Below, one piece after another: positions 42,222-59,465 of a stretch of 64,000 bases of DNA. Each line of letters opens with the position of its first letter. Within the stretch, counting starts at the first letter, position 1. This DNA comes from Psychrobacillus sp. FSL H8-0483 (lineage in GTDB: Bacteria > Bacillota > Bacilli > Bacillales_A > Planococcaceae), in the NCBI RefSeq assembly GCF_038637725.1, contig NZ_CP152052.1, positions 789,501 through 853,500 of the forward strand, in the 5' to 3' direction. Under the pieces are notes generated by a model, which saw nothing but the letters and a program-made list of their open reading frames with translations, was not told where the DNA came from and made no database searches. The position numbers and the translations under genes are program-made.

Positions 42222-42250
42222 TATTATTAAATACATGTTATATACATGTA
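42222..42250 (+). promoter_or_regulatory. Promoter -10 region and operator 1 (two TACATGT-type boxes)
   Basis: TATTAT (42222-42227) is followed by TACATGTT-ATA-TACATGTA (42232-42250). About 30 bases around it match the site at 55808, including the -10 region. An operator placed at the transcript start fits repression. It controls the propeller gene at 42417. I infer the GntR protein encoded at 51330 as the binder. Confidence 0.65.
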
Positions 42251-42416
42251 TACATAGTAGGAAGTAATGGAGGAGGTTTGTATAATTCACTTGAAGAATA
42301 AATCAATATGTACTATTTCTAACGCCTAACCTCTACAGCGGACAGCTTCAATAAGAAACGCAACAGATTAATCTATCGGAAAAAGCTCTTCAATCTACTA
42401 CTCAAGGAGGAAGAAA

Positions 42417-45239
42417 ATGAAGATTGTATTAAATTTTGTTTTTCTATTAAGTATGATTTTATTGGTAACCTTCTCATTTCCTAGTATGCATTCAGTTTCA
42501 GCTGAAGATTTGGTAATACAAAACCCGGGCTTTGAGGATTCGTCAGGTAGTGGAGTTATCCCAGGCTGGACACAGAATTTTGGTACTACTAGCATAACGA
42601 CCGTAGAGAATGAGTTTTATTCAGGTACGAAAAGCTTAGAAATTAGAGATACAAGTAAGAATGAAAACCTTGGATTAATAAGTAATACAGTTTCTGTTAC
42701 ACCTGGTAGAGAATACACTGCATCTGCCAAAATCAAAACGGGTTCGAATGGATCTGGAGAAATATACATTCGTTTTTTTGACCAGCAAGGTGCATATATT
42801 ACTGGTTTTAATAAGTCGTTAAATGGGGCAATTGCATGGTCAGATATAAGCATTACAGCTGTTGCACCGGAAACAGCAGCATCGGCTGCTATTTTATTTT
42901 ATTCTGGTAAAGCAAATATAGGAACCTTCTATTTTGATGATGCTAGTTTAATGGAGGTAAAGCCTATCAACCCAATTGAAGAGGTAGCTGAGGATTTAGG
43001 TATCCAAGTTACGAAAACAACTGTCATGTTAGGGGATATTGGGAAAGACTCTCAGGAAAATGATGTCTTATATACAGTAGTGGCGGGAATTCCTTCTAAA
43101 TTTGCTATTGTGGATGTTGCTACTGAAGAGTTAATAAAAAGCTATACGTTAGAGGATACATCTGGGGCGTGGGGTGTAAAGGTTGCTTCAGATGGTTCTG
43201 TTTATCTAGGTGCATATAATAAGGGCTTTCTTTACCGTTATTTACCTCAGACCGATGAATTAATCAATCTTGGACATCCGGTTAAGGATACAGATGCTGT
43301 ACTTTATCCATTTACTACAGCAAGCGATGGGAAAATTTATGGAGGTACCTATGGTTCTGGAAGTGTTTATGAATATGATCCTACTACTGAAATGTTTACG
43401 GATTTTGGAAGGATGGCTGATGGACAGTCATGGGTTAGAAGTGTTGCTTTAGATGAAGGAAATCAAAAAGTCTATGCAGGAGTAGGTAGTAAAGCACATT
43501 TAATAGAATACGATATTGCTACTGGTGAAAAGAGAAATATTCTTCCCGCACAATATGAAGATATTATTTCTGTTTATGATTTAAATTTTGTTGATGGGAA
43601 ATTATTTGCACAAAAAGAATCCAAATTTGAAATGTTTATTTACGATACGGAAACTGGAAATTTGGTAGAGGCTACGAACGGTGACACAGGTGAGAAGACA
43701 TATGATATTCCTGAATCATCAAGAGGCGTTTCGGAAAAATCTCCTATTGCCAATAAAGTTTATTACACTCATTTTGGAATATTACATGAGTACAATTTGG
43801 ATACGAATACATTCCAATCGTTGAATGTGGATCTAAAAGGAAGTGCTATAAGTTATAAATTCATCCAATTAAATGAAGAAGAATTTCCAGGATATACACT
43901 GGTGGGTCTTTCCGGTAATGGTGGTCAGCTTTATAAATATAACTTGGTAAATGGAAACCTTAAGCTGACAAATTTAGATTTACCTTCTGAGTCTGTTTTA
44001 ATTCATGAGTTGGCGAAGGGACCAGATGGAAAAATATATAGTACCGGTTATCTACCTGGTAACATGAGTGCATTTATCCCTACTTCACAGGAAACTGTTC
44101 GATTTGATGGTATTGGGCAAAGTGAGGGAATGACTAACTTAAACAATAAAATGTATTTAGGAATTTATCCTAATGCCAAAATATATGAATATAACCCATT
44201 CAAAGCATGGGATCGGACGGACTCTAATAATTTAAATCCTGACCTCTTATTCAGCTTGGAAAAAAATGATAGCATACCAGGTTATACACTGCAAGACAGA
44301 CCATTCGCGATGCTTGGAGTAGATGATTATAACAAGTTGTTCATAGGAACTGTACCGAAAAACGGGAATTTAGGTGGTGCATTTACTATATATGAACCAG
44401 GAACAGAAAAAGATCTAGAAATTTATTGGAATTTAATGAAAGACCAAAGTATTGTTTCCTTAGCTTATGCGAATGGAAAGGTATACGGCGGAACTACTGT
44501 AGCTGGAGGGCAGGGTTCTACACCTACAACAACAGAAGCTAAATTATTTGTTTGGGATATAGAGAAGCAAGAGAAAACTTTTGAAGTGGTCCCTGTACCA
44601 GGTAAAAGAGCATTAACTGCATTAATCCTTGGCCCAGACGGAAATATTTGGGGGATGTCAGATGGAACATTATTTGCATTTGACCCTGCTACAAACAACG
44701 TAATTTATAGCAAGGAGATAGACCCTAAAGCTTCAAGTAACTGGAGAAATGCTTCTCTTGAGAATGGTACGGATGGGAACATCTATGGGGTAATTGGTAA
44801 TAAGTTTTTTAAATTTGATGTAGTTAGTAACGAACATGAATTTCTTGCTAGTGGTGTGGAGCATTTAGCCCAAGATGATTTTGGAGCCTTCTATTTATCA
44901 AAAGGTATCAACTTATATAAATACGAGGATAATAGTTTGATTCAAACTATTAAGAGCGCAGAGCTGTCAGTTGATGAACAACGTCTTACAGTTGGAGATA
45001 CTACGCAGCTTCATCTTAAAGCTATTTTAGAGAATAATAGAAGCACCTATGAATTGGCGGGGAGTACTATTGAATACACAGTTAGTAATCCAAAGATGGT
45101 ATCTATAAACAATGGGATCTTGACTGCCCAAAAAAGTGGAAGAGCTGATATTACAGTAAACGTTACATTAAATGGGGTTACTGTTGAAAGTAATACGGTC
45201 TCCGTCTGGATCGATAATAAAGGTGGAAACAATAAGTAA
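42417..45239 (+). CDS. Secreted carbohydrate-binding beta-propeller protein
   Basis: This 940-residue protein starts at ATG after AAGGAGG. A signal peptide covers about 1-29. Residues 30-185 form a CBM4/9-like carbohydrate-binding module (QNPGFEDSSG, FYFDDASL). Residues 200-850 are a long propeller with repeated GSVYLGAYNKGFLYRY- and GKIYGGTYGSG-like blades. Residues 855-940 form an Ig-like (Big2-type) domain (LSVDEQRLTVGDTTQLHL). No catalytic motif or anchor is visible. It probably binds or processes a polysaccharide outside the cell. The cytoplasmic protein at 48356 repeats the same blade pattern. An operator lies upstream. Confidence 0.8.
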   Translation: MKIVLNFVFLLSMILLVTFSFPSMHSVSAEDLVIQNPGFEDSSGSGVIPGWTQNFGTTSITTVENEFYSGTKSLEIRDTSKNENLGLISNTVSVTPGREYTASAKIKTGSNGSGEIYIRFFDQQGAYITGFNKSLNGAIAWSDISITAVAPETAASAAILFYSGKANIGTFYFDDASLMEVKPINPIEEVAEDLGIQVTKTTVMLGDIGKDSQENDVLYTVVAGIPSKFAIVDVATEELIKSYTLEDTSGAWGVKVASDGSVYLGAYNKGFLYRYLPQTDELINLGHPVKDTDAVLYPFTTASDGKIYGGTYGSGSVYEYDPTTEMFTDFGRMADGQSWVRSVALDEGNQKVYAGVGSKAHLIEYDIATGEKRNILPAQYEDIISVYDLNFVDGKLFAQKESKFEMFIYDTETGNLVEATNGDTGEKTYDIPESSRGVSEKSPIANKVYYTHFGILHEYNLDTNTFQSLNVDLKGSAISYKFIQLNEEEFPGYTLVGLSGNGGQLYKYNLVNGNLKLTNLDLPSESVLIHELAKGPDGKIYSTGYLPGNMSAFIPTSQETVRFDGIGQSEGMTNLNNKMYLGIYPNAKIYEYNPFKAWDRTDSNNLNPDLLFSLEKNDSIPGYTLQDRPFAMLGVDDYNKLFIGTVPKNGNLGGAFTIYEPGTEKDLEIYWNLMKDQSIVSLAYANGKVYGGTTVAGGQGSTPTTTEAKLFVWDIEKQEKTFEVVPVPGKRALTALILGPDGNIWGMSDGTLFAFDPATNNVIYSKEIDPKASSNWRNASLENGTDGNIYGVIGNKFFKFDVVSNEHEFLASGVEHLAQDDFGAFYLSKGINLYKYEDNSLIQTIKSAELSVDEQRLTVGDTTQLHLKAILENNRSTYELAGSTIEYTVSNPKMVSINNGILTAQKSGRADITVNVTLNGVTVESNTVSVWIDNKGGNNK

Positions 45240-45321
45240 AATACCATTAAAATTAAAAAATTTACTACAATTGTTTTTATTATTTAAAATTTCAAACAAT
45301 TTATTGCTTATTATATAAAAC

Positions 45322-45376
45322 TATAATATGATCTAAGAAAAGAGTATAGATACATGTAAAATACATGTATCTATAC
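45322..45376 (+). promoter_or_regulatory. Promoter -10 box and operator 2
   Basis: A perfect TATAAT at 45322-45327 is followed by a perfect 15-base inverted repeat (45344-45358 with 45362-45376, GTATAGATACATGTA) with a three-base centre. The core TACATGTA-AAA-TACATGTA has the same spacing as operators 1 and 3. It lies just before the deacetylase-like gene that starts the enzyme operon. Confidence 0.75.
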
Positions 45377-45399
45377 TACTTCATAGAGGTGCTGAGAAC

Positions 45400-47085
45400 A
45401 TGAAATTAGCGAATATTGGTATTCTTTTTGATGAAAAAGAAGCGGAGTTAACCTGGTTAGAAGGACAGAATATTTTTAGTAGCTATTTATTTGAAATTCT
45501 TGAACATGTAAGACTCCCGTATAAAAAAGTAAGTGAGAAGGATGAGTACGAATCGTTTGATGTACTTATTGTAAGCCATTTGCGTGATAGTGAAGAGGCA
45601 AGCTCCAAAATATTAGCATATGTACACGCTGGTGGGACAGTAATTTCCTACGGCGGATTGGACGCTATTCGAAGCAAATTAGGTTTTTCAAATAAGTATG
45701 CTCCTCAAAAGGGATATGCGGATTTATCTTCCTTCTTAAATCAACATACACCTTTACGTTTTCTCGATGCAGAGCCCTGGACACAGGAAACTAATTTAGG
45801 CGTAACGGAATTTGGTTCTGTAGCTGATGAGGCAAAAACATGGCAAGGAGCATCGGCATTACAACAGATTAAATATGGATCTGGAACTATTGAACGCTGG
45901 TCTATTGCGATTCCTCAAACGATTGTTGGACTGCAGCAGGGAACGAAGCCTGTTGTGGAGGATGGAACACCAGCTCCGGATGGTTCGGCAAATTTAGATG
46001 AGGAAATCTTAAAGGCAGAGGATGGCTTTGAACTAGATTGGGTTTTGGATAGAGCATTTACAGAAACAGGAATGCCTTATTTTCCACATCCATATGCCGA
46101 CTTATGGAAAGAAGTAATAATGGAACATCTTTTAAAAATAGTACTAGAAAAAGGCTTAACACTTCCGTTCCTCGATTATTGGCCAGCTGACGTGCAACAT
46201 GTTGCGATGATTTCCCATGACAGTGATTTAAATGTGGATGAATCAGCGCAAATCACATTAGATACTTTGAAGGCAGAAAATGTTCAATCTACCTGGTGCA
46301 TGATTGCACCAGGCTACAGTCCCTCAATATATGATCAAATAAAAAAAGATGGTCATGAAATTGCCCTCCATTATAATGCACTAGAACAGGATGAGGGCGT
46401 TTGGTCAGCGGAAGCTTTTCAAAAGCAATTAGCATGGGTAGAAAAAGCAACAAATACAGACCATACTGTCTCCAATAAAAATCACTATACTCGTTTTGAA
46501 GGCTGGGGAGAGTTATACGCTTGGTGTGAAAACAATGAGATACAAGTGGATCAATCGAGAGGTCCAAGTAAAAAAGGGAATATTGGTTTCTTATTTGGAA
46601 CATGTCACCCCTATTTTCCGATTGCTTGGGCGGATGAAAAAAATAGATTATATGACGTTTTAGAAATCGGATTTTTAACGCAGGATTTAAATCACAATAC
46701 ATTATCAGATGTTAGTGTCATTCAGCCTTTCTTAGATGGAGTGAAGCGTGTACATGGAGTAGCTCATTTTCTGTTCCATCAATACCATATCTACCATCAG
46801 CCAAAAGTAAGAGAAGCCATTGTTCAATTAATAACGACTGCTAAAGATCAGGGATTTACCTTCTGGACTAGTAAGCAAATCAATGATTGGGAACGTGCAC
46901 GTCGTAGAGTAACAATTGATGGAATTAGTCATTCTGGAGCTATAAAGGTAACTACACTGGATGAAGAAAATGATTTTGTGATTCTTATTCCTGTAGCCGA
47001 AAACCATGCAGATAATGTTGTAGTGAAACGATTTGGCATTAGCTGTAAGCAAGTTGAAGTTAAAGTTAAAGTGAACGGATCCTAA
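45400..47085 (+). CDS. Cytoplasmic NodB-type polysaccharide deacetylase-like protein
   Basis: This 561-residue protein has ATG after GAGGTGCTGAG. The N-terminal 240 residues look like a flavodoxin/glutamine-amidotransferase-like fold (DVLIVSHLRDS, AGGTVISYGG). The C-terminal half carries carbohydrate esterase 4 signatures: H273-D274-S275-D276 for the catalytic Asp and metal-Asp, and H319-E-I-A-L-H324 for the metal histidines. No signal peptide is present, so it should act on sugars inside the cell, perhaps removing acetyl groups from imported oligosaccharides. It is the first gene of the operon behind operator 2. Confidence 0.75.
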   Translation: MKLANIGILFDEKEAELTWLEGQNIFSSYLFEILEHVRLPYKKVSEKDEYESFDVLIVSHLRDSEEASSKILAYVHAGGTVISYGGLDAIRSKLGFSNKYAPQKGYADLSSFLNQHTPLRFLDAEPWTQETNLGVTEFGSVADEAKTWQGASALQQIKYGSGTIERWSIAIPQTIVGLQQGTKPVVEDGTPAPDGSANLDEEILKAEDGFELDWVLDRAFTETGMPYFPHPYADLWKEVIMEHLLKIVLEKGLTLPFLDYWPADVQHVAMISHDSDLNVDESAQITLDTLKAENVQSTWCMIAPGYSPSIYDQIKKDGHEIALHYNALEQDEGVWSAEAFQKQLAWVEKATNTDHTVSNKNHYTRFEGWGELYAWCENNEIQVDQSRGPSKKGNIGFLFGTCHPYFPIAWADEKNRLYDVLEIGFLTQDLNHNTLSDVSVIQPFLDGVKRVHGVAHFLFHQYHIYHQPKVREAIVQLITTAKDQGFTFWTSKQINDWERARRRVTIDGISHSGAIKVTTLDEENDFVILIPVAENHADNVVVKRFGISCKQVEVKVKVNGS

Positions 47086-47100
47086 TATGGGGGACTTATA

Positions 47101-48336
47101 ATGGGAGAAAATATACTAGCATTAAATGGCGGTACGAAGGTGAAAACGACCGACTTTGGTACAGGACAGCGTTTTGGGTTAGAGGAGGCAAAGGAATTAC
47201 TAGAAGCACTTGAGCAAAATACATTATTCTATCACTTTGGCAATAAAGTAAAGCAGTTTTTACAGGATTTTAACGATCTTTATAAAGTTAAATACAGTGT
47301 TGCTACTTCTTCTGGAACTGCTGCACTACATGTCGCACTTGGAGCAGCTGGAGTTACGGTTGGAGATGAAGTTATTACAAGCCCTATTACAGACCAAGGG
47401 ACAGTGGTAGGGATTCTCTATCAAAATGCTATCCCAGTTTTCGCTGATTTGGATCCCCATAGCTATACTTTGACTGCTAAATCAATCGAAGAAAAAATAA
47501 CAGCCAAGACGAAGGCGATAATTGTTGTGCATCTAGCAGGTAATCCTTGCGATATGGATCCTATTATGGAGCTTGCAAAAAAATATAGCCTTAAGGTTGT
47601 GGAGGATTGTGCTCAAAGTTATTTAACGACTTACAAAGGGCGACTAACGGGTACAATTGGGGATTATGGTTGTTTTAGTACAAATGATTTTAAGCATATT
47701 TCTACTGGTGACGGAGGAATGGTGACCGTAAACTCAGGGGAAGAATCAGATTATTTTACTACTCATGCATTTGCAGATAAAAATTATCGTAGACAAGAAG
47801 ACGCTGTGATGAAGGATTTAGAATACTTAGCGCCGAATTATCGTATGACAGAGCTACAAGGTGCGGTTGGAATTGCGCAGTTAAAAAAGCTTAACTGGAT
47901 CTGTACAAGACGCAACGAGCTAGGGAAAAGCTTAAACCAAGGACTCGGTACTATTAATGGGATCAATCCGATGAAAACTACCGACGAAGGCTGGTGTAGC
48001 TATTGGTTTTACATGCTCACCTTAAATCTGGAGCAGTTTTCCTGTTCAAGAGAGGGATTTTCGGAAGCTTTAGCAGCAGAAGGAATTCCAAACCAGCCTG
48101 GTTATATTCCGAAGGTGTTATATGCACAGCCTTTATTTCAAAAGGAACAGGCGTATTTGAATAGTCATTATCCATTTGATCTAGGATCCTATGATTATTC
48201 CATAGGTAGCTGCCCAAACGCCGAGAATATTTTAGAAACGGCGATTCGATTAAATATAAATGAATTCTATACAGACCAAGATATAGAAGAGATGATTATC
48301 GCAATCAATAAAGTTGCTTCCTATTATAGTAAATAG
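47101..48336 (+). CDS. DegT/DnrJ/EryC1/StrS-family aminotransferase
   Basis: This 411-residue PLP enzyme has SSGTAALHVAL (phosphate-binding), VEDCAQSY (cofactor Asp) and the Schiff-base lysine K198 in STNDFKHISTGDGGMV. Family members transfer an amino group from glutamate to keto sugars. Here it is surrounded by degradative genes, so it may work in the reverse direction, removing an amino group from a sugar, or have another substrate. The next gene starts 19 bases after it. Confidence 0.88.
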   Translation: MGENILALNGGTKVKTTDFGTGQRFGLEEAKELLEALEQNTLFYHFGNKVKQFLQDFNDLYKVKYSVATSSGTAALHVALGAAGVTVGDEVITSPITDQGTVVGILYQNAIPVFADLDPHSYTLTAKSIEEKITAKTKAIIVVHLAGNPCDMDPIMELAKKYSLKVVEDCAQSYLTTYKGRLTGTIGDYGCFSTNDFKHISTGDGGMVTVNSGEESDYFTTHAFADKNYRRQEDAVMKDLEYLAPNYRMTELQGAVGIAQLKKLNWICTRRNELGKSLNQGLGTINGINPMKTTDEGWCSYWFYMLTLNLEQFSCSREGFSEALAAEGIPNQPGYIPKVLYAQPLFQKEQAYLNSHYPFDLGSYDYSIGSCPNAENILETAIRLNINEFYTDQDIEEMIIAINKVASYYSK

Positions 48337-48355
48337 TTCTGGAAGGAGGGTCACT

Positions 48356-50173
48356 ATGCTCAAAAATATGTTTACAGACTATGGTATTCCAGTTTCAGCA
48401 GAGGAAGAAAGAACAGCTGCAATATGTATGAATTCGGAAGGTGACTATAGGTTCGTTATTGCTGCCAAAGGGTTTGTCATTATTGTCAATCTTGAAAATG
48501 ATCATATAAAACAAGTATTCTTTCCTGAAAATAACGAAGAATATCCTTATTCCTCGTTTAGTAGCAATGGATTATTTTATACCGGTGCTGCAAATATGGT
48601 TATGGTATTGGACCCTTTTTTAGAGCAATTTATTTATTATAAGGTGATTGAAAACGGGGAAGAAATTGTAGGTTTTAGCTTTGCGGAGGATATACCGGGT
48701 AATATTTATTTCACCTCGTATCCCCATTGTCATTTACTTTGTTATTCGCCTCGCTCAAAAGAGATCATGGACTATGGCAGGATGGACATTACCGAAAAGT
48801 ATCCAGGAACTGTAGCGGTGGATCACACAGGGTGGGCATATATAGGAATCGGAACGGAAAAGAAAAATATAGTTGCCTTTCATCTAGAAAAAGGTTTGAA
48901 GAAAGACCTTGTCGCAGAAACACAAAGGGAAAAGGGAACTGGATATATCTATTTAGGTGACGATGGATTTGTATACGGACATATGGGAGCTACTAGTTCT
49001 CCGCAATGGATGAAGTTTTCTAATGGAGAGTTCGAAACTATCGATGTAGAAAAACTATCCCCCTCTTTTTATACTGGTACAGCATTTCAAAGGATTCATC
49101 GGTATCAAGAGGGAATCTATAATATAGAGAGATATAGTCTGTCTGAAGGATTTATTGAACTTGTTCACAGAGAAACAGCACAGACAAAAAATATACATTT
49201 TAGCTATACCTCAGACGGAGCGAAATTATCTACTATTTACCTCGGACCTGATGATCGAATATACGGTACATCTATGCATCCGTTACAATTTTTTCAATTT
49301 GATAGCTCCACGGTCAAGACGACTAATTTTGGTGGAGAGGTGATTGAAAAAGGTGGCGGGGGAAATATTGCAGCCTATGCTTCCATAGGGAATTTACTTT
49401 TAGGAGCAGCATACGCAGGTGGAAAGCTATACGTCTTTGATACAACGAAGAAATTTAGGAAGAGTGAAAATCCAAAATTGGTACTGGGGGAAGAGAGTAT
49501 CCACCGACCTCGCTGCGCCATTGCTTTAAAGGATCATGAACATATTGTTTGGGGAGGATTTCCGGGATATGGAATGGTCGGAGGGGCATTAGGTATCTAT
49601 CATATTGAATCTAAGGAAAACCATCTGCTGACACATGAAATAGTAGTGGAAAACCAGAGTACGATTAGCCTTGGTGAATTGAGCTCTGGTGATATCGTTG
49701 GTGGAACGAGTATTGAGACACCTGGTGGAGCAGAATCACGAGAAAAAGAGGCTCGTTTATATGTATTAGACTGGAAGACCCAAAAAGTGAAAAATAGTTT
49801 TGTTCCAATAGAAGATGCTCGTGAAATTGCTCAAATCTTTGTTGACCAATTCAACCGTGTACATTGTCTTACGGAACAAAGTATTTACTTTGTGTGCAAT
49901 CCATATAACGAACAGATCCTTTTCCAACAAGATTTATCCAGCTGGGGACAAATTGTTCGAAATGGTTTTGCTTATGATTTGCCGACTAATACGCTCTATT
50001 GTCTTCTTAGTCATACATTGCTCAGTATAGAGATTCAGGAGGAACAGTGTGTAGAACCGAAAGTAGTTCACTCACTACCGATGATCGCTAGTAGTGGTAT
50101 TGTTCATAAGAATAGTCGAATCTACTATGGTAGCGGAAGTCATTTATGTAGTATTCAAATTGGTGAAAATTAG
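48356..50173 (+). CDS. Cytoplasmic beta-propeller protein, paralogue of the secreted one
   Basis: This 605-residue protein starts at the ATG six bases after GGAAGGAGGG; the longer frame from 48314 lacks such a site. There is no signal peptide or membrane helix. Repeated blades contain GWAYIGIGTEKKNIVAF, DDRIYGTSMHPLQFFQF and AYAGGKLYVFDTTKK, and a GGTSIETPGGAESREKEARL segment resembles GGTTVAGGQGSTPTTTEAKL of the secreted protein at 42417. I infer common ancestry. It may be an oligosaccharide-binding or lyase-type propeller. Confidence 0.75.
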   Translation: MLKNMFTDYGIPVSAEEERTAAICMNSEGDYRFVIAAKGFVIIVNLENDHIKQVFFPENNEEYPYSSFSSNGLFYTGAANMVMVLDPFLEQFIYYKVIENGEEIVGFSFAEDIPGNIYFTSYPHCHLLCYSPRSKEIMDYGRMDITEKYPGTVAVDHTGWAYIGIGTEKKNIVAFHLEKGLKKDLVAETQREKGTGYIYLGDDGFVYGHMGATSSPQWMKFSNGEFETIDVEKLSPSFYTGTAFQRIHRYQEGIYNIERYSLSEGFIELVHRETAQTKNIHFSYTSDGAKLSTIYLGPDDRIYGTSMHPLQFFQFDSSTVKTTNFGGEVIEKGGGGNIAAYASIGNLLLGAAYAGGKLYVFDTTKKFRKSENPKLVLGEESIHRPRCAIALKDHEHIVWGGFPGYGMVGGALGIYHIESKENHLLTHEIVVENQSTISLGELSSGDIVGGTSIETPGGAESREKEARLYVLDWKTQKVKNSFVPIEDAREIAQIFVDQFNRVHCLTEQSIYFVCNPYNEQILFQQDLSSWGQIVRNGFAYDLPTNTLYCLLSHTLLSIEIQEEQCVEPKVVHSLPMIASSGIVHKNSRIYYGSGSHLCSIQIGEN

Positions 50174-50188
50174 AGGAGGGATAAGACC

Positions 50189-51250
50189 ATGTATACATTA
50201 AAAGCGATTGAAAAGGATGGAGCCCCACCATTATTACATAATGTAAGTGATATAGTCGATTGGCATGAAAAAAGATCTATGATACACCGGAATTGGTTAG
50301 ATTGTATAGGAGGTCTTCCTCCTTTAGTTAAACCCAATATGAAGATTAACTCCTGGGAGCTCCATACCGATTATTACCTGATCAACATTTGCTATTCCAC
50401 GGTTTACGAGGACTGGGTACCTGCAAATCTTTTAGTTCCGAAAGTCCATGAAGAAGAAATTATAGCAACAAAAAGTGATGTGCTTCAATTATTGAACTCA
50501 GCTAATAGCGAGCAGTTTCGGGCAGTGATTGCCCTCCATCCAACGAGCGATAATGGGAAAGAGGACATAAGTACAATAGCGGGTAGGAAGAATAGACAGT
50601 ACGGACTGGAGCTCGTAAAAAGAGGATATGTGGTTTTAGCTCCAGATACCATAACTGCAGGAGAACGAGTATTAAAGAACGATCAGCCGTTTCAAACGGC
50701 TGCATTTTATAAAAGTCACCCGGAGTGGTCGGCAGTTGCTAAAATGATTGTGGATCATCAACAGGGTATAAGCTTATTAGAGGAACTAAGTATCGTAGAC
50801 AACTCCAAAATTGGTGCAATTGGGCACTCTTTAGGCGGTTATAATAGCTTCTTTCTAGCAGGAGTCGACAGGAGGGTTAAAGCAGTCGTTTGTAGCTGTG
50901 GGTTCTCACTTTTCGCACAAGACCCGGAGGTGCATCGCTGGGGCAGAAGAGAGTGGTTCAGCCATATCCCTAAGATTAGTGATTATATAAATGAAGGAAT
51001 CGTACCGTTTGAATTCACCGAAATAGCTGCACTAGTTGCTCCAACCCCCTTCTTCCTATGGATGGGGCAAAATGACGGTATCTTTCCTCATTGGGAACCT
51101 GCAGCAAAAGGATTAGTTGAACTTAACTCCTTATATGAATGGATGGCAGAAGGGAAACGATTTACATCATTGATAGGGAACTCAGGCCACGATTTCCCAC
51201 CAGAAATTCGCCAAATTGCCTATGCTTTTCTAGATAAATGGTTGAGCTAA
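50189..51250 (+). CDS. Alpha/beta-hydrolase (dienelactone hydrolase/acetyl esterase-like)
   Basis: This 353-residue protein has the nucleophile elbow GHSLGG with S214, and a C-terminal catalytic His region near GNSGHDFPPE. The likely Asp is in MGQNDGIFPHW. N-terminal residues 1-100 form a cap-like region. No signal peptide. In this locus it probably removes ester-linked groups from imported oligosaccharides. Ribosome site is GAGGAGGG. Confidence 0.85.
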   Translation: MYTLKAIEKDGAPPLLHNVSDIVDWHEKRSMIHRNWLDCIGGLPPLVKPNMKINSWELHTDYYLINICYSTVYEDWVPANLLVPKVHEEEIIATKSDVLQLLNSANSEQFRAVIALHPTSDNGKEDISTIAGRKNRQYGLELVKRGYVVLAPDTITAGERVLKNDQPFQTAAFYKSHPEWSAVAKMIVDHQQGISLLEELSIVDNSKIGAIGHSLGGYNSFFLAGVDRRVKAVVCSCGFSLFAQDPEVHRWGRREWFSHIPKISDYINEGIVPFEFTEIAALVAPTPFFLWMGQNDGIFPHWEPAAKGLVELNSLYEWMAEGKRFTSLIGNSGHDFPPEIRQIAYAFLDKWLS

Positions 51251-51329
51251 AATAGTCGTTCAAGTTTTCATTGCAAAATATGCTATCCTAATTAAAAGTA
51301 GGGCAATCATTAGTAGGGAGTTGTAGGAA

Positions 51330-52760
51330 TTGCTAAAAAGAAAAAGTGTATTTGAAAATCGCTACAATAAATTCATCCATGAATTAAAAGAAGAAATTAT
51401 TTCAGGAAAGATTAAGCCTGGTGAATTCATCCTCCCTGAAAATACATTAAGTAAAGTGTATGAATTAAGTAGAGTTTCCATTAGAAAGGCATTGGCAGAA
51501 CTTGTCGAGGAAGGCCTAATTGAGAAAATACCCGGAAAAGGAAACAGAGTAACAATTCCAAACGATACGCAAAAACAGACGATTACACTAGGTTGGTTTT
51601 CTAATTCATATGAGATAGAAATTATACGGAAAATTATAAAACGTTTCGAACAGCTCAACCCGTTCACAAAAGTAAATCTTCAAATACTGCCTAATAGCCA
51701 GTATATTTACAATCTGACACAATCCTTAAAGCATGATAACGGACCCGATGTATTTATCGTATCTGACTATCATTTTCGGGAACTAATGGAGTCGAACTCT
51801 TTAGATATGCTAGATCCTTTCTTGCCGGAGCATATTGACACAGAAAAGGATAGCTATAAGCAGGTGTTTGATATGTTTACGTATAATCAGACGGTTCCTG
51901 TAACGCCATTTGTATTTTCACCAGTGATGATCTGCTACAATCGACGAATGTTTGAAGAGGCAGGGATCTCAAAGGACTTCAAAATGGAAAACTGGAGTGA
52001 CCTGTTAGAGTTATCTACCCGTACAACGAAGGGAATGGATAGCGACAGTATGATTAACGAGTACGGTTTTTGTTTTTCATCTTCCACAAATCGCTGGCCA
52101 GTATTTCTATTACAAAACAAAGGTTCGTTCATGTCAGAGGACCGCTCTAAATCAGTTATGAACAGAAAAGAGAATATAGAAGCGCTCAATTACTGTGGTG
52201 ATTTAATGTATAAGCATCAAGTCTCTCCCATATTCTCTCACGGGAGTAATGAGTTAGCTGAAAATCTCTTTATGCGAGAAGGAGCAGCAATGATTTTGAC
52301 CACCTATTATTTTATGAATGAATTTAGAGACCATAAGATTAAATGGGACGTTCTTCCTCCTCCTCAAAATGATGCACCAGGAACACTTCTTTTAGGTGGT
52401 GCTTTAGGAATTAATGCAAATAGCAATATTAAAGAGGCAGCGCAAGCATTTGTTAGCTTTATGGTAAGTACTGAAGCACAAACATTGCTCAAGCAAAATG
52501 GATGTACGATTCCGATGCTTCGCATAGTTGCAGAGGATAACAATCTTCTACAGCCTGGTGTTCATCCTGAACAATATAATGCTTTTAAAGAAGTAATGGG
52601 ATCCTCCAAGACGATTAGAGACCTTCATTTAACGATCGAGGAATTTGAACTAATTGAACGAGAGATGCAATTTTTCTGGGCCAATATGGAAAAAGCAGAG
52701 GATACATGTAAACGAATTGAAGAGCTTCTAAATTTAAAACAAGCGACGTATAGCGGTTAA
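51330..52760 (+). CDS. GntR-type regulator fused to an extracellular-solute-binding-protein domain
   Basis: This 476-residue protein starts at TTG. Residues 10-75 are a GntR winged helix (LSKVYELSRVSIRKALAELV, then IEKIPGKGNRV). Residues 80-470 have the family-1 sugar-binding-protein fold (NPFTKVNLQILPNSQYI, GPDVFIVSDYHF). There is no signal peptide, so the sugar-binding domain works in the cytoplasm as ligand sensor. It is the only regulator in the locus and is the likely binder of the three TACATGTA operators. The ligand is probably the imported oligosaccharide or its lyase product. Confidence 0.85.
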   Translation: MLKRKSVFENRYNKFIHELKEEIISGKIKPGEFILPENTLSKVYELSRVSIRKALAELVEEGLIEKIPGKGNRVTIPNDTQKQTITLGWFSNSYEIEIIRKIIKRFEQLNPFTKVNLQILPNSQYIYNLTQSLKHDNGPDVFIVSDYHFRELMESNSLDMLDPFLPEHIDTEKDSYKQVFDMFTYNQTVPVTPFVFSPVMICYNRRMFEEAGISKDFKMENWSDLLELSTRTTKGMDSDSMINEYGFCFSSSTNRWPVFLLQNKGSFMSEDRSKSVMNRKENIEALNYCGDLMYKHQVSPIFSHGSNELAENLFMREGAAMILTTYYFMNEFRDHKIKWDVLPPPQNDAPGTLLLGGALGINANSNIKEAAQAFVSFMVSTEAQTLLKQNGCTIPMLRIVAEDNNLLQPGVHPEQYNAFKEVMGSSKTIRDLHLTIEEFELIEREMQFFWANMEKAEDTCKRIEELLNLKQATYSG

Positions 52761-52783
52761 ACCGTTATCTAAGGGGTGTACTT

Positions 52784-55057
52784 GTGATGAAATTTGCTCA
52801 ACATCTTAAGCAATTAAAGCCAAATCCTCGAATTTTATATAATGACGAGGAACTAATGGAAATGAAAGCAAGACTAGCAGATAACAAACTCGAAAGTGGG
52901 ATTGATTTTAACAATGCGTGGGATAAAACGCTTGAACTAGCAGAGTCATACGTAGATGAAAAAGAGTTTACGGTTCTCTATCCAAGCTGCTCGGTTCAAC
53001 TGACTATTCCTTTGCCATTAATACAATTAGAGCCTGTTGGGGATCCACCAGGGTATAAAGATTATCCTTTTTGGACGATGTATTCTCGAGCTATTGAGGA
53101 CAGAATTAGAATTTTAGCATTTGCCTATGGAATGACGAGGGAAAAAAGGTTTGCTGAAAAAGTAAAGGAGTATCTCATTGCTCTATCCTCGTTTACAAGA
53201 TGGTTTGAATTTCCGCTAAGAGGTGCGGAAGGGAATTTAAGTAATGCTCATTTCACTATAGGCGCAGCAATTGGCTACGATGCAATTTTGCATACCTTAT
53301 CCAACTCGGAGAAAAATACGATTAAACATGCTATTTTAACAAAAGGTTTACAGCCTTTCCGTATAGATTTTGCCAATCATGATAGCCATAATATTATTGC
53401 ATCAAAGCAAGTAGCGATGCTTATCGGATCACTTGCCATTTTAGATAGTGATTGTGAGGACGAAGTGGAACCCTTCATCTTCAATTCTTGTACTTATATA
53501 AGCGATTATCTAGATAGTAGGTTGAAGGATGCCGACATTGAGGGGCTATTGTATTTAAATGTTGCTGTAAGACATGTTTTATTGGCAGTGGATACGTACC
53601 ATCGTTCGACAGGAAATGTAGAATTTCTCCAGCATCCATACTTTAGTTTTCTTCCTGATATCTTCATATATTCACTTGGTACCGGTGGAGAGAAGAGCTT
53701 TGTAAACTTTTCAGATTCATTTTATAGCTTGGATATTTCTTATCTTATGGCAATTCTTGCATCGAAAAACCAAAATCGTATTGCAAGCTGGTATATAAAT
53801 AAATTCTCTGAAAGTCATTTGGAAACATTACTTCATGCGAATAATCTACCCGAGCCTTTAGAGCCGGAAAAATACTATGAAAATAAATGCTCCAATATAT
53901 TTTCTACGATAGGCTGGGCTTCACTTAGAAGTGGTTGGAAGGATCTTAATCATCTATTAGCCTTCAATTCAAGTCAATCAGCAAAGGATCATAATCATTT
54001 TGATCAAAACAATTTTATTTTACATGTTGCTGGAGAATGGCTAATATCCAATCCGGGTTACCAGGATTATGTGGAAGGTCCAAGGAGAGATTTTACGATT
54101 GGGACAATTGGACATAATAGTATGCTTGTAAATGGCAATGGACAATCTCGATTAGGAAAAAGTAAATTTGTAGACTGGTATACATCTGATAACTATTCTT
54201 TTGTAAGTGGAGAAGCAGCTGGTGCCTACGACAAGAGTATTTCGCAATGGGAACGAAAAATAGTACATATCGATAATAGCTATTATCTTATTGTAGATAA
54301 GGTAGTTAAAGAGGATCCGGATAGTGTTCTCAGCTTTCTTTTCCATACGCCAGCACAAATATACGCAGGGGATAAAAATTTACTGCCAGGGACGAAGACA
54401 GAAGAAAAGCATATCAGGTTCACTGGAGACAAAGCTTCCGTTTCCCTTTACGATTGCTATCCAGAAGATACAAAGAAAAGCATAGAACAGCATAAGGGAG
54501 CAGAAGAGTATGGCTCTTATCTACAGGTAGTGCCTCATGATAAGGAGCAGCTACAATATATGATAACGATGCTTGTTCCTGAATCTTCAGAAAACGAATT
54601 AGCGTATTCAGTAACGAGAGATGGATCACTATTTCAAATGGAGGTTAGTCGTCAAGGTATTACAGATCATATTCTTGTAAATGAGGAAAGAGAGTCTGTG
54701 TGGCAAACATCCTCTAATCGTGAAATTGGTCTTCAAGGAGAACAGGGGTGGATTTCATTTCAGAACGACGACAACAAGCTAAGTAAGTTATCTGTCGTAA
54801 AAGGTAGCTGTATGAAGCTACAGGAGGATACAATCTTTCAATCGACTGAAGATCTGAATGTTTCTGTTCATTTTAATAAAAAAGGAGCAAAAATACAGCT
54901 GGAGCTTCCAAAAACTACTCAGGTTTGGATAAAAACTCCCCAGCCTACTGGTCTATTAGTAAATAATGAGGAGCATTTGATAAACTATCAAAATGAACAG
55001 GGAATGCTTGAATTTCATCTGAAGTTTGGAAAATATGAAATCAAGCTATCCATTTGA
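52784..55057 (+). CDS. Cytoplasmic heparinase II/III-family lyase
   Basis: This 757-residue protein has GTG at 52784 or ATG at 52787. Residues 1-360 form an alpha/alpha toroid (catalytic-region SHNIIASKQ, YHRST). Residues 370-640 hold the heparinase II/III beta-sandwich domain (AKDHNHFDQNNFILHVAG, then TIGHNSMLVNG). It is not exported. It should cleave uronate-containing oligosaccharides by beta-elimination in the cytoplasm. It is not closely similar to the heparinase-fold protein of the capsule cluster at 21991. The regulator gene lies 23 bases upstream. Confidence 0.85.
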   Translation: MMKFAQHLKQLKPNPRILYNDEELMEMKARLADNKLESGIDFNNAWDKTLELAESYVDEKEFTVLYPSCSVQLTIPLPLIQLEPVGDPPGYKDYPFWTMYSRAIEDRIRILAFAYGMTREKRFAEKVKEYLIALSSFTRWFEFPLRGAEGNLSNAHFTIGAAIGYDAILHTLSNSEKNTIKHAILTKGLQPFRIDFANHDSHNIIASKQVAMLIGSLAILDSDCEDEVEPFIFNSCTYISDYLDSRLKDADIEGLLYLNVAVRHVLLAVDTYHRSTGNVEFLQHPYFSFLPDIFIYSLGTGGEKSFVNFSDSFYSLDISYLMAILASKNQNRIASWYINKFSESHLETLLHANNLPEPLEPEKYYENKCSNIFSTIGWASLRSGWKDLNHLLAFNSSQSAKDHNHFDQNNFILHVAGEWLISNPGYQDYVEGPRRDFTIGTIGHNSMLVNGNGQSRLGKSKFVDWYTSDNYSFVSGEAAGAYDKSISQWERKIVHIDNSYYLIVDKVVKEDPDSVLSFLFHTPAQIYAGDKNLLPGTKTEEKHIRFTGDKASVSLYDCYPEDTKKSIEQHKGAEEYGSYLQVVPHDKEQLQYMITMLVPESSENELAYSVTRDGSLFQMEVSRQGITDHILVNEERESVWQTSSNREIGLQGEQGWISFQNDDNKLSKLSVVKGSCMKLQEDTIFQSTEDLNVSVHFNKKGAKIQLELPKTTQVWIKTPQPTGLLVNNEEHLINYQNEQGMLEFHLKFGKYEIKLSI

Positions 55058-55117
55058 AATTGCATTAATAATTGACTGAATTTTCAATGATAATCTGTAT
55101 TTAAAGAGGTGATTTAC

Positions 55118-55762
55118 ATGGAACTTACTGGATGGAGAGGCTCGTTATATCATTATATGGATTGGGCTTTGAAGCTTGCGTATCTAAATATTCTTTGGTT
55201 AGTGGGGATAATCATTGGTGTGGGAATTGCAGGATTTTTTCCGTCAACCATGGCAATGTTCTCTGTACTTAGAAAGTGGACACAAGAGGAAGAAGAGGAA
55301 CTTAAGGTATTCGCTCATTTTAAAAATGAGTATAAAAAGGAATTCCTCCAATCCAACAAATATGGCTATTCATGGGCAGTACTTGGGTTAATAATATACG
55401 TGGATTTACAGTTTTTCCGTGGCATTCCTACTATTTGGGCATTAATTGTTTCTTTATTCTTTTTTATACTTGCTGCTATTTATATAGTAGCTTTGCTATA
55501 TGCATTCCCGGTTTACGTTCAATATAAGTTGACCTTAAAGCAATATTTTAGAAACTGCTTACTCATTGTACTTTCTAATCCATTGTTTTCTGTGCTAATG
55601 GTTTTAGGATTTTATTTCCCATATTATTTGATGATCAAAATTCCAGGATTACTTCCATTTTTCGGAGGTAGCCTCATAAGCCTAGTATTAATGGTTATTT
55701 CTAACAAAATGTTTACGAACTTAGCGAAAAATAACAAGACAGTTACAGAAAAAGGAATATAA
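55118..55762 (+). CDS. YesL-family membrane protein (DUF624)
   Basis: I chose the ATG at 55118, eight bases after AGAGGTG, over the GTG at 55109. The 214-residue protein has about five membrane helices. An N-terminal motif W.L.LAYLN.LW and the GFFPSTMAMFSVLRKW segment define the DUF624/YesL family. Members occur beside CUT1 sugar importers of the Lpl/Yte group in polysaccharide loci, with no established role. Confidence 0.85.
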   Translation: MELTGWRGSLYHYMDWALKLAYLNILWLVGIIIGVGIAGFFPSTMAMFSVLRKWTQEEEEELKVFAHFKNEYKKEFLQSNKYGYSWAVLGLIIYVDLQFFRGIPTIWALIVSLFFFILAAIYIVALLYAFPVYVQYKLTLKQYFRNCLLIVLSNPLFSVLMVLGFYFPYYLMIKIPGLLPFFGGSLISLVLMVISNKMFTNLAKNNKTVTEKGI

Positions 55763-55776
55763 TTTTTTAAAAAACA

Positions 55777-55830
55777 TTGAATTATTGTAAAATTTAAATT
55801 ATTATTAAATACATGTAATATACATGTATT
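55777..55830 (+). promoter_or_regulatory. Promoter and operator 3 of the importer operon
   Basis: TTGAAT (55777-55782), a 17-base spacer and TATTAT (55800-55805) form a good sigma-A promoter. AATACATGTA-ATA-TACATGTATT (55808-55830) covers the transcript start. The core is TACATGTA twice with a 3-base gap, so centres are 11 bases apart, one helical turn. An operator over +1 implies repression relieved by ligand. Confidence 0.75.
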
Positions 55831-55858
55831 GAAAAGAGTTTAATAGAGTAACAAGTAC

Positions 55859-56863
55859 TTGGGAAAGGGGAAATTGGTTATTGAAACTAAAAACAAAAAA
55901 AATGATACGCTGGATTCAACATTAGCGGTATCAAATAATATCCCGACTAAAAGAAAAAAGAATTCATTAAAAAAGAAATTATGGCGAGATCGCTATTTAC
56001 TACTACTAATCTTACCTGGAATTCTATATTTCCTTATATATCGCTATATACCAATGGCCGGAATTCTTCTAGCATTTAAGGATTATAGCCCATTTCGTGG
56101 GTTTGCTGATAGTCCGTGGGTAGGGTTAAAATACTTTAAATTGATCTTTGAAGATGCGGAAGTTATTCAAGTTATTTGGAATACGCTACAAATTTCATTG
56201 TTACAAATCTTTTTTGCTTTTCCAATTTCCATAGTACTTGCCTTAATGCTGAATGAAATTAGAAACCAGGTATACAAGAGATTTCTTCAATCTATTGTGT
56301 ATTTACCACATTTCTTATCCTGGGTAGTCGTTGTTGGGATAACTGTTATTTTTCTTAGAAGTGAAGGTTTAATAAATAGTTTTCTAGTGAATTTTTTGGA
56401 AGTCAATCCGATCCCATTTTTAACAGATCCTTCTATGTTCAAGCCTATAGTCATTCTCCAGGTTATCTGGAAGGAATCAGGATGGGGTACTATTCTTTTC
56501 TTAGCGGCATTGTCTGGGATTAGTCCGCATTTGTATGAAGCGGCTGTAATAGACGGAGCTAGTCGTTTGAGACAGATGTGGCATATCACTTTACCAGCAC
56601 TTAAGAGTACGATTGTCATCTTATTGATACTCCGTTTAGGTAATGTCATGGATAGTGGTTTTGAGCAAATCTTTCTCATGTTGAATCCTTTCAATATGGA
56701 AACGGGAAACGTCTTGGATACTTATGTGTATTTTAAGGGGATTCAGCAGGCTAATTTCAGTTTCGCCACAGCTGTAGGGCTGTTTAAAGGAATTATTGGT
56801 TTAATACTTGTTGTTCTTGCCAATAGACTTGCGAAAAAGTTTGGAGAAGATGGTTTATATTAA
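55859..56863 (+). CDS. Sugar ABC transporter permease (LplB/YteP type)
   Basis: This protein of 334 residues (TTG at 55859) or 329 (TTG at 55874, three bases after GGGG) has six membrane helices. The N-terminal cytoplasmic part is basic. Family segments are RDRYLLLLILPGILYFLIY, AFKDYSPFRGF and the EAA loop EAAVIDGAS..RQMWHITLP. The LplB/YteP group imports complex oligosaccharides such as rhamnogalacturonan fragments. No ATPase gene accompanies it, so it probably uses a shared MsmX-type ATPase. Confidence 0.92.
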   Translation: MGKGKLVIETKNKKNDTLDSTLAVSNNIPTKRKKNSLKKKLWRDRYLLLLILPGILYFLIYRYIPMAGILLAFKDYSPFRGFADSPWVGLKYFKLIFEDAEVIQVIWNTLQISLLQIFFAFPISIVLALMLNEIRNQVYKRFLQSIVYLPHFLSWVVVVGITVIFLRSEGLINSFLVNFLEVNPIPFLTDPSMFKPIVILQVIWKESGWGTILFLAALSGISPHLYEAAVIDGASRLRQMWHITLPALKSTIVILLILRLGNVMDSGFEQIFLMLNPFNMETGNVLDTYVYFKGIQQANFSFATAVGLFKGIIGLILVVLANRLAKKFGEDGLY

Positions 56864-56901
56864 AACACCATCTTACAGGATTTACTTAAGGGGGTAAGGT
56901 T

Positions 56902-57777
56902 ATGTTTAAATCTTCTGGTGGCGAAAGGGTAATGGAAATTGTTAATAACATACTTTTGTTATTAATAACCGTAACGATGCTATTTCCCTTTTTATACATT
57001 TTTTCCGTTTCATTTTCAAGTATAAGTGATGTACTTAATAGTGATTTCCTTTTATGGCCAAAGGATTGGGTGACAGACGCTTATACGTATATTTTAGGGT
57101 CTGATCAGTTTATCCGTTCCTTATGGGTTACAGTTTATGTCACTGTGGTAGGAACATTTGTTAATCTAGTTTTCACTTCAACAATGGCCTATTCATTAAC
57201 AAGAAATATTATTGGGCAACGCTTAATCCTGTTTTTAGTATTATTCACTTTACTATTTTCTGCTGGAATGATTCCAACTTATATTATTGTAAAAGAAACT
57301 GGTTTGTTGAATTCGTTATGGGCTTTGATAATACCTGTAGCAATCAGTCCTTTTAACTTAATCATCATGACTCAATTTTTTAAAGGGATTCCTGAGGAAC
57401 TAACAGAGGCTGCGGTTATTGATGGAGCCAATGATATTCAAATTTTTTCTAAAATTATTTTACCGTTATCTAAGCCTGCTTTGGCAGCATTTGGTCTGTT
57501 TTATGCAGTGGGTCATTGGAATAGCTACTTCTCAGGAGTACTTTACTTGAACGACCCTGCAAAGTGGCCAATACAGGTTATTTTACGACAAATTGTAATT
57601 GTTAATGAACCAAATGCAGCGCTAGGTGGTCATGCGGCAATGGTTGAGGCATTACCTCCTCCAGAAACGGTTCAAATGGCAGCTATTTTGTTGGCAACCT
57701 TACCAATACTTATTGTTTATCCATTCTTACAAAAACATTTTGCAAAAGGAGTGATGCTTGGATCTGTAAAAGGTTAG
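56902..57777 (+). CDS. Sugar ABC transporter permease (LplC/YtcP type)
   Basis: This 291-residue membrane protein starts at ATG after AAGGGGGTAAGG. It has six helices and the EAA loop TEAAVIDGANDIQIFSKI; the C-terminal LGSVKG ending is typical of YtcP/LplC. It forms a heterodimer channel with the preceding permease. The two genes and the binding protein gene make one unit behind operator 3. Confidence 0.92.
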   Translation: MFKSSGGERVMEIVNNILLLLITVTMLFPFLYIFSVSFSSISDVLNSDFLLWPKDWVTDAYTYILGSDQFIRSLWVTVYVTVVGTFVNLVFTSTMAYSLTRNIIGQRLILFLVLFTLLFSAGMIPTYIIVKETGLLNSLWALIIPVAISPFNLIIMTQFFKGIPEELTEAAVIDGANDIQIFSKIILPLSKPALAAFGLFYAVGHWNSYFSGVLYLNDPAKWPIQVILRQIVIVNEPNAALGGHAAMVEALPPPETVQMAAILLATLPILIVYPFLQKHFAKGVMLGSVKG

Positions 57778-57842
57778 TAATTAAAAATGGTCTGTACTAC
57801 TGTTTAACGAAGCCTTACAAAAAGATAAATGGAGGGGTCATT

Positions 57843-59465
57843 GTGAAAAATAAGCACTTAATAATTAGCTTTCTGCTTCTTTTCCTCAGTTTTATGTTGG
57901 TAGCTTGTACGGATGAAAAGACAGGTGAAAAAGAGACCAATAAAGAAAATGAAACAGCAGGAGAAACTGAAAAAGCTCCAGATAAAGAGATATATCCATT
58001 TGATCATAGTGAGAAATATACAATCACGGGGATGACATTCCGTTTTGGTGATCCACCTCCGTTAAGCAGTCCTGGTCTTGATATGATAAATGAGCGCTTT
58101 AACGTAGATTATAAACCAGAGATCATACCACAGGGTGACTATGTGGAAAAATCGTCTGCCATTGTAGCTTCAGGTTCAATGCCAGATTTAGTTGGTTTCC
58201 AAGCTGGTGATACCCGTTTTTATCAGTGGGCTGAAGATGGAGCGTTCTTACCATTAGATGATTATCTATCACATTACGCAACATTAGGGAAAATTCCAGA
58301 CTATATTTACAATTCTTTTAAAGTAAATGGAAAAATATACGGGATTCCGCGTTATTCTCAACCATTTCCTTTAACACCGATTATTCGGAAGGATTGGCTA
58401 GACAAACTAGGGTTAGAAGTTCCAACGAATTACGAAGAGCTTGAGGAAATTGCCATTGCATTCACTAAAGAAGATCCAGATGGTAATGGTAAGGCCGATA
58501 CGTATGGTGTAGCTATTGGAGAAAATATCAATCCAAGCTTTAATATGGGAACTTATTGGGACTTCAACGCATGGTATCACCAAAATGATAACGGTGATTT
58601 TATCCCTGGTATCATTTCTAATGGAAGAAAAGATTTGATTCAATTTTTTGCTAATCTTTATAAAGAAGGCGCTATGACAAAGGATTTTGCGGTTTTAGAT
58701 TGGGCAAGTACAAATAATGAATTTTATTCTGGCAAAGCAGGAATTTTTGTAGGTGGTGTCTCTGGAATGTCTCAGGAATACTTTGAAGGATTATTATCCA
58801 TTAATCCGGATGCAGAGCTTGTAGCAATTCCACCATTTGAAGCGCCAGATAAATCTAAAGGATTCACAATGGGTTCAGGTAACTCAGGGATTCTTGCTTT
58901 AAATGCTAAACTTGCGGAAGATGAAGGAAAAATATATCGTGCATTAGAGTTAGTGGATTTCGGAAAAACATACTTTCCGGCTGAGAAAAAAAATCCTCAA
59001 AATGCAGATTTTGATTTTTATTTAGGTAAAGAAGGAACTGGTTATAATATGGAAAATGGATTGCCTGTCCAAGTTCCAACATTCTCTTCTGAAGGACTTT
59101 CACCATCAACCTATTTCTTGGATAACAGAGAACAGGTTCCAGAGGATGCAGCGATTAACTATGCTGATAGCTACACTTTACCAGAGTTGAAGGAAATGAC
59201 GGTTACCCTACAGGAAATGTTTGAATCCAACCAAATGTATATTGACCCATCTCATGGGGTTTTGTCACCGACAAATCAAGAAAAAGGCACAGACTTAATG
59301 CAATTCCTAATAAACGAACAATCTAAAATGATCGCAGGCCAAAGACCAGTATCTGATTGGGATGCGCTTGTTGAGGAATACTTGGCAAAAGGCGGCGAAG
59401 CGATTATTAAAGAAACAAATGAAGGAATCAAAGCAAAAGGTTACACAGAAAGAGAATGGAAGTAA
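57843..59465 (+). CDS. Sugar-binding lipoprotein of the LplA type
   Basis: This 540-residue protein starts at GTG after GGAGGGG. The signal peptide ends in the lipobox LVAC with C22. An acidic linker (residues 25-60) leads to a family-1 solute-binding fold typical of LplA: YGIPRYSQPFPLTPIIRKDW, then DPDGNGKADTYGV (calcium-type loop). Length of 500-560 residues is characteristic for this oligosaccharide group. It captures the degraded polysaccharide for the two permeases. Confidence 0.92.
   Translation: MKNKHLIISFLLLFLSFMLVACTDEKTGEKETNKENETAGETEKAPDKEIYPFDHSEKYTITGMTFRFGDPPPLSSPGLDMINERFNVDYKPEIIPQGDYVEKSSAIVASGSMPDLVGFQAGDTRFYQWAEDGAFLPLDDYLSHYATLGKIPDYIYNSFKVNGKIYGIPRYSQPFPLTPIIRKDWLDKLGLEVPTNYEELEEIAIAFTKEDPDGNGKADTYGVAIGENINPSFNMGTYWDFNAWYHQNDNGDFIPGIISNGRKDLIQFFANLYKEGAMTKDFAVLDWASTNNEFYSGKAGIFVGGVSGMSQEYFEGLLSINPDAELVAIPPFEAPDKSKGFTMGSGNSGILALNAKLAEDEGKIYRALELVDFGKTYFPAEKKNPQNADFDFYLGKEGTGYNMENGLPVQVPTFSSEGLSPSTYFLDNREQVPEDAAINYADSYTLPELKEMTVTLQEMFESNQMYIDPSHGVLSPTNQEKGTDLMQFLINEQSKMIAGQRPVSDWDALVEEYLAKGGEAIIKETNEGIKAKGYTEREWK

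Follow-up and report, generated by a model that had tools for sequence, protein, structure and literature searches.

The question raised by a 64,000-nucleotide stretch of Psychrobacillus sp. FSL H8-0483 (contig NZ_CP152052.1, positions 789,501 to 853,500; referred to here as the window, and numbered from its first letter) is which protein reads three matching paired palindromes found upstream of a secreted propeller gene, an enzyme operon and an importer operon, and to what effect. A first-pass annotation of the window had proposed a local regulon bound by a GntR/solute-binding fusion encoded at 51330 (the 51330 protein). Comparison of related genomes supports this protein as the predicted binder: its gene tracks the sites in the genus and in a wider family sample, and paralogous fusions share the geometry of the sites. 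With a probability of roughly 0.84, the three sites are operators of the 51330 protein, which would act as a ligand-relieved repressor of the propeller, enzyme and importer units; from these comparisons we infer direct binding, repression rather than activation, the class of ligand and the number of dimers per site.

Three paired palindromes in the window

Each site consists of two 8-base palindromes separated by three bases (TACATGTA-NNN-TACATGTA), and all three matching pairs described by the first-pass annotation, with their 11-base spacing, are present (Table 1). The whole 19-mer also reads as a single palindrome (inner GT-N5-AC), ‘two palindromes’ and ‘one long palindrome’ being identical letters. 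A scan of the complete genome (4,136,829 bases; 4.14 Mb), proposed with that annotation, did not return many unrelated 19-base matches: with at most one mismatch the pattern occurs at three places, each inside the window. Six more places were found at exactly two mismatches, none of them in the window, while a reversed control pattern gave three places in the whole genome at up to two mismatches. The chance of three random points landing inside 13.6 kb of 4.14 Mb is ~3e-5. Within the window, allowing up to three mismatches yields precisely the same three sites, confirming that no further pairs lie in its intergenic regions; shuffles gave a mean of 0.49 and reached three in 4 of 100 cases, so that the excess judged on the window alone is modest. 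Single 8-mers resembling TACATGTA are not enriched (43 in the window at up to one mismatch vs 37 expected), and the signal therefore lies in their pairing at an 11-base offset. The regulon is local, as proposed, in the genome of the window; some Paenibacillus genomes have single members on other contigs.

A GntR winged helix fused to a solute-binding domain

A Pfam survey of the 11 main locus proteins (42417 to 59465) identified a DNA-binding domain in the 51330 protein and in none of the other ten, which agrees with its earlier description as the sole regulator in the locus. The 51330 protein has the N-terminal GntR winged helix that defines the family (residues 12–74; PF00392, E 4e-12, 46 bits vs a cut-off of 27), followed by a family-1 solute-binding domain (~95–390) with SBP_bac_1 and SBP_bac_8 matches. 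An AlphaFold model (pLDDT 89.5) likewise has a solute-binding fold behind the winged helix, as a mixed alpha/beta C-terminal domain of ~390 residues, with Lmo0181 (cycloalternan-binding) and AbnE (arabino-oligosaccharide-binding) as best fold matches. A hydropathy scan of the protein revealed no hydrophobic signal or membrane stretch (no signal-peptide predictor was used), the maximum 19-residue value being 0.82 vs 2.37 at the N-terminus of the 57843 importer protein; by this measure it lacks the export signal or lipoprotein N-terminus expected of importer solute-binding proteins. A recent origin of the sensor by copying of the importer binding protein was considered and rejected, as similarity is marginal and the closest solved relatives differ (AlgQ2-type for 57843; Lmo0181/AbnE-type for 51330).

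Co-inheritance of the regulator gene and the sites

All evidence presented here is comparative, and related genomes are not independent. An ortholog of the 51330 gene was found in 10 of 19 genomes of the genus, and the pattern (up to one mismatch) in 7 of these 10 vs none of the nine lacking an ortholog (Fisher p = 0.0024, indicative only, since the genomes are related). Each of the 17 genus matches lies within ~10 kb of the ortholog; the reversed control gave four places. The remaining three ortholog-bearing genomes (73–74% identical) carry shifted sites of a shared G-variant type (KACAKGTAWTATACMKGTM) at equivalent positions. Each of the ten genus loci has equivalents of operators 2 and 3 (0 to 3 and 0 to 2 mismatches, respectively), and an equivalent of operator 1 is found in L039, L040 and L042 and in loci of Bacillus, Fredinandcohnia and Ornithinibacillus.

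A scan of named genomes provided 43 related loci, five of which come from contigs of genomes in the genus set. When one mismatch was allowed, the 17-base core was matched 41 times in 23 of these loci, the five scrambled palindromic controls together giving five matches. Sites precede the propeller, enzyme and importer genes in Bacillus, Fredinandcohnia and Ornithinibacillus. In Paenibacillus the importer genes are often ahead of the enzymes, and sites are found before the importer, a propeller homolog or a 45400-type gene (L066, L072). The sites move with their genes where these are reordered or unlinked (L064, L066, L072, L121, L122, L123, L132), and those placed elsewhere still precede a propeller homolog (L123) or a 45400-type gene (L131, L132). 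In a sample of 344 genomes from the family, 15 have the ortholog, 25 have the strict pattern TACAKGTNNNNTACAKGTA and seven have both, i.e. the pattern is present in 7/15 genomes with the ortholog vs 18/329 without (Fisher p = 2e-5), and in five of the seven the site is on the same contig as the regulator gene, within ~16 kb.

Several observations weigh against this assignment. In 20 of the 43 loci the 17-base core is not matched even with one mismatch allowed; for some the fetched flank stops short of the promoter, and for others the regulator gene is located apart from the gene cluster. Of the 25 pattern-bearing genomes in the family sample, 18 have no ortholog at the cut-off used, and the strict pattern is missing from 8 of the 15 with one. 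For the reversed control, 16 family genomes gave 16 strand matches, near the 18, and the pattern matches in genomes lacking the ortholog may mostly be background. A looser pattern, ACAKGTNNNNTACMKGT, gave 55 strand matches in 31 genomes (27 genomes matched) vs 39 for its reversed control, with other matches in places unlinked to the locus; being this near background it was rejected as a regulon finder, and the strict site alone is useful genome-wide. Finally, the 51330 sensor domain is only marginally similar to the importer binding protein, leaving a common ligand unsupported.

Spread of the fusion through the phylum was also considered and rejected. Twenty of 329 sampled genomes match at E ≤1e-22, but only three matches extend into the GntR domain, one from the window itself and two from members of its class, while matches in the other 17 start at residue 73 or later and resemble ordinary solute-binding proteins.

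Two features of the family sample were recorded separately. A TACATGTKNCTTACATGTA match recurs in G340, G422, G430, G474, G507, G551 and G626, all without an ortholog, and several of these have it at about position 500,000 on contig 1. G504 (C9:1972930-1974327) carries what looks like a decayed regulator gene, a 42% ortholog interrupted by two internal stop codons.

Predicted contacts with the operator

Base preferences were compared over 57 curated sites, which are motif matches at expected places. This set excludes L047 (near-identical to L045), L048–L051 and L055 (same contigs as genus loci) and L067 (its site resembles the one in L065), the L041:4247 match, the duplicate at L058:15598, second matches in L081–L083, stray sites in L084, L122, L127, L131, L132 and L133, and scattered places with three mismatches. 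The sites have the GntR-type arrangement Ny-GT-Nx-AC-Ny, with an inner GT-N5-AC in which G6, A13 and C14 occur in 57/57 and T7 in 54/57, column counts that are partly circular as sites were picked by motif match.

A recognition-helix arginine contacting the G of GT is described as common to FadR, NagR and AraR (PMC4494728, PMC4333415). In NagR, Arg48 reads the G at −4 from the operator centre and Arg38 a second G at −5 (PMC4333415). The NagR (YvoA) chain aligns with 51330 over residues 12–81 without any offset, so that R48 of 51330 is the same position; this residue is at least 90% conserved in a 32-sequence alignment, and the helix SRVSIRK is conserved in most aligned orthologs. G is found at −4, the base read by NagR Arg48, in 57/57 curated sites. 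NagR Arg38 is replaced by Asn38 in 51330, and at −5 the 57 sites have T (36), G (18) or A (three).

It is quite possible, if rather short of an even chance, that two dimers sit side by side, one on each TACATGTA, instead of one dimer per 19-mer, a matter of stoichiometry that is compatible with 51330 as repressor. The 6-mer ACATGT is itself a palindrome, the curated sites hardly vary in any of their four AC/GT boxes and the 11-base offset is approximately one helical turn; in addition, NanR places several dimers on a repeated operator (PMC8012715), and extra half-sites 7–12 bases from site centres have been described for GntR regulators (PMC4494728). The same letters also fit one dimer on the inner GT-N5-AC palindrome, and when left and right halves of the 57 sites were compared, seven were closer to an inverted and 12 to a direct arrangement, with 38 ties.

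Promoters and direction of control

The first-pass annotation placed each site at or just after a −10 box, which holds for operator 3 and roughly for operator 1, where a promoter script chose TTGATT-N17-TACATT, ending 10 bases before the operator. It does not hold for operator 2, as the likely −10 there (TATGAT, 45327–45332), read by eye, is 18 bases upstream. The script preferred another pair of hexamers 31 bases upstream of operator 2, and in L039 and L042 picks the pair equivalent to that read by eye. TTGACA promoters in Paenibacillus L059–L061, L066 and L072 have a −10 that abuts the operator or falls within it, making repression likely.

In the proposed mechanism, ligand-free 51330 protein would bind the 19-base site overlapping or following the −10/start region of each promoter, repressing the propeller, enzyme and importer units. 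As its own gene lies inside the enzyme operon behind operator 2, it should also repress itself. An imported oligosaccharide, or a breakdown product of one, would then close the solute-binding domain and free the DNA. That the fusion protein binds the same sites as an activator, or as a roadblock to transcription, instead of occluding promoters is unlikely. A roadblock is as plausible as occlusion at operator 2, ~18 bases past the likely −10, and Psychrobacillus promoters are non-consensus, with script choices that vary. Activators usually sit upstream of −35, whereas the operators are at or downstream of −10, and the Paenibacillus promoters with −10 boxes in contact with the operator argue against both activation and roadblock.

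Paralogous fusions share the operator geometry

Two of the ACAKGTNNNNTACMKGT matches (L127, L133) directly precede genes for other GntR/solute-binding fusions, which are 27% identical to 51330. A search with one of these paralogs gave 75 matches in 29 of 104 genomes, with up to seven per genome; the genomes termed Paenibacillus-related are groups centred on the named loci L060 and L070. For comparison of upstream sequences, 73 regions of up to 400 bases were used. Five of the 75 matches are absent from this set, which does contain L133 and counts two genes twice (L182, L209), duplicates that clustering removes. ACNNGT-N5-ACNNGT occurs in 10 regions (five clusters), vs 0–3 regions at every other spacing from 0 to 20. 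A half-site matrix was then built only from 51330-group sites, and 15 genes with 40% or more identity to 51330 were removed. At a threshold of 14 and 60% clustering, half-sites at offset 11 were found in 18 of 34 paralog clusters, vs a mean of 1.84 and a maximum of 4 at other offsets from 8 to 40. Raising the threshold to 16 or 18 gave 13/34 (mean 1.09) and 8/34 (mean 0.44), respectively, and 50% clustering gave 7/17 (mean 1.62, maximum 4). Roughly half of the paralog clusters have no such pair at offset 11.

In the L186/L189 cluster ACATGT is replaced by ACCGGT, and both helix and wing are altered (SRTSVRAT, PSRG), as expected if the protein itself reads the site, although this is a single case. 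A partial check of the neighbours of 12 paralogs (19 proteins) identified some catabolic functions (enolase-like, class-III aminotransferase, heparinase-like) and some unrelated ones, with no clear common theme among the 19.

The GntR/solute-binding fusions would probably constitute a GntR subfamily that has not been described before, with duplication giving up to seven members per genome in the Paenibacillus-related groups. Its sensors would be cytosolic ABC sugar-binding domains, and its members would share an operator code of two near-palindromic 6-mers at an 11-base offset; variation of the 6-mer between paralogs (ACATGT, ACCGGT) would let each member find its own regulon.

These paralogs also bear on the idea that the sites are read by another regulator, encoded outside the cluster, of which the fusion gene would be only a passenger. 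Linkage by itself would make any gene of the cluster co-occur with the sites, but the other ten main proteins are without a Pfam DNA-binding domain and paralogous fusions elsewhere, including the 27%-identical ones in L127 and L133, have the same paired half-sites upstream, making a passenger role very unlikely. Least probable of all is that the palindromes act in RNA as leader hairpins, a reading rejected for the set of sites because pairing beyond the core is good only at site 2 in close species (arms of 16 pairs, with changes matched on both sides among the window, L040 and L042 and one mismatch in L039, and a 45400 leader folding at −22.8 kcal/mol, z −6.1), while outside close species the flanks pair poorly with the 19-base core retained. 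Sites 1 and 3 have their core so close to the likely −10 that most of it would fall outside the transcript. At operator 2 the repeat may serve as both operator and RNA hairpin.

Relationship to known regulators

GntR regulators are divided into six subfamilies (PMC5320631), by sensor domain into FadR, HutC, MocR, YtrA, AraR and PlmA (PMC4494728), and none of the six, as described there, has a family-1 solute-binding sensor. Pfam identified SBP_bac_1 and no UTRA match in 51330 (vs HutC), no LacI-type sensor family (vs AraR) and no aminotransferase family (vs MocR), the best fold matches are sugar-binding proteins, and the mixed alpha/beta C-terminal domain is neither all-helical nor a short two-helix domain as in FadR and YtrA.

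The arrangement resembles AraR in combining a GntR winged helix with a periplasmic-binding-protein-like sugar sensor, AraR being described as controlling sugar uptake and use in Firmicutes (PMC4494728). The AraR sensor, however, is of LacI/GalR type rather than a family-1 ABC solute-binding domain, and the operator of the 51330 group differs in its four near-invariant AC/GT boxes. HutC members (NagR/YvoA, DasR, TreR) provide the nearest curated sequence models for the 51330 DNA-binding domain, and NagR shares the arginine and the G at −4 (PMC4333415), but 51330 is without their UTRA domain and its GT-to-AC spacing is 5, vs 4 in most HutC and 3 in most FadR sites (PMC4494728). E. coli NanR is likewise a GntR repressor with a repeated operator and several cooperating dimers (PMC8012715), but is placed in the FadR subfamily (PMC4494728) and has another repeat and spacing. 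Engineered chimeras of binding proteins and DNA-binding domains also use a periplasmic binding protein as the sensor of a regulator (PMC6079105); these are synthetic, in contrast to the natural, duplicated lineage seen here.

A literature search found no GntR/solute-binding fusion and no operator of this kind described by title or abstract, which is weak evidence of absence since subscription papers were mostly outside its scope. The best reading is that 51330 is a new GntR variant whose operator has a geometry of its own. The fusions would then be a natural, multiplied counterpart of a biosensor design built by engineers (PMC6079105) and could serve as naturally occurring components of sugar-responsive switches. 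A known operator allows the target genes of a member to be proposed from genome sequence wherever the site is strict; the soluble sensor domain offers a handle for ligand finding, making substrate assignment testable for orphan carbohydrate clusters.

Gene content of the locus

Gene content by Pfam agrees with the original description of a propeller gene, an enzyme operon and an importer operon behind the three sites (Table 1).

Table 1 Candidate operators, putative promoters and main genes of the locus in the window.
Feature	Coordinates	Strand	Details
Operator 1	42232..42250	.	TACATGTTATATACATGTA, one mismatch; upstream of secreted propeller gene
CBM4_9/propeller-repeat protein	42417..45239	+	Hydrophobic N-terminus; predicted regulon member 1
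Putative promoter TTGCTT-N17-TATGAT	45304..45332	+	Read by eye; 18 bases before operator 2
Perfect inverted repeat	45343..45377	.	16-base arms, 3-base centre; contains operator 2; presumed 45400 leader
Operator 2	45351..45369	.	Exact match; upstream of enzyme operon
First gene of enzyme operon	45400..47085	+	No Pfam family; weak polysaccharide-deacetylase-like match
DegT-type aminotransferase	47101..48336	+	Enzyme operon; Pfam
Unannotated protein, 619 residues	48314..50173	+	No Pfam family; predicted all-beta, propeller-like
Alpha/beta hydrolase	50189..51250	+	Enzyme operon; Pfam
Predicted regulator (GntR + solute-binding fusion)	51330..52760	+	Enzyme operon; Pfam, model
Heparinase II/III-like protein	52784..55057	+	Enzyme operon; nearest solved relatives include oligo-alginate lyase
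DUF624 protein	55109..55762	+	Enzyme operon; Pfam
Putative promoter TTGAAT-N17-TATTAT	55777..55805	+	4 bases before operator 3
Operator 3	55810..55828	.	Exact match; upstream of importer operon
Importer permease 1	55859..56863	+	Pfam
Importer permease 2	56902..57777	+	Pfam
Importer solute-binding protein	57843..59465	+	Lipoprotein-like N-terminus; nearest solved relative AlgQ2

From the AlgQ2 and oligo-alginate lyase relatives, our guess is that the substrate may be a uronate-type oligosaccharide. The unannotated 48314 protein is conserved, being found by tblastn in 29 of the 43 named loci, and its structure model has generic propeller matches only (TM-scores ~0.4 or less). In Bacillus niameyensis (L058; 13586, 15598) the operator and both permease genes are present twice, in tandem.

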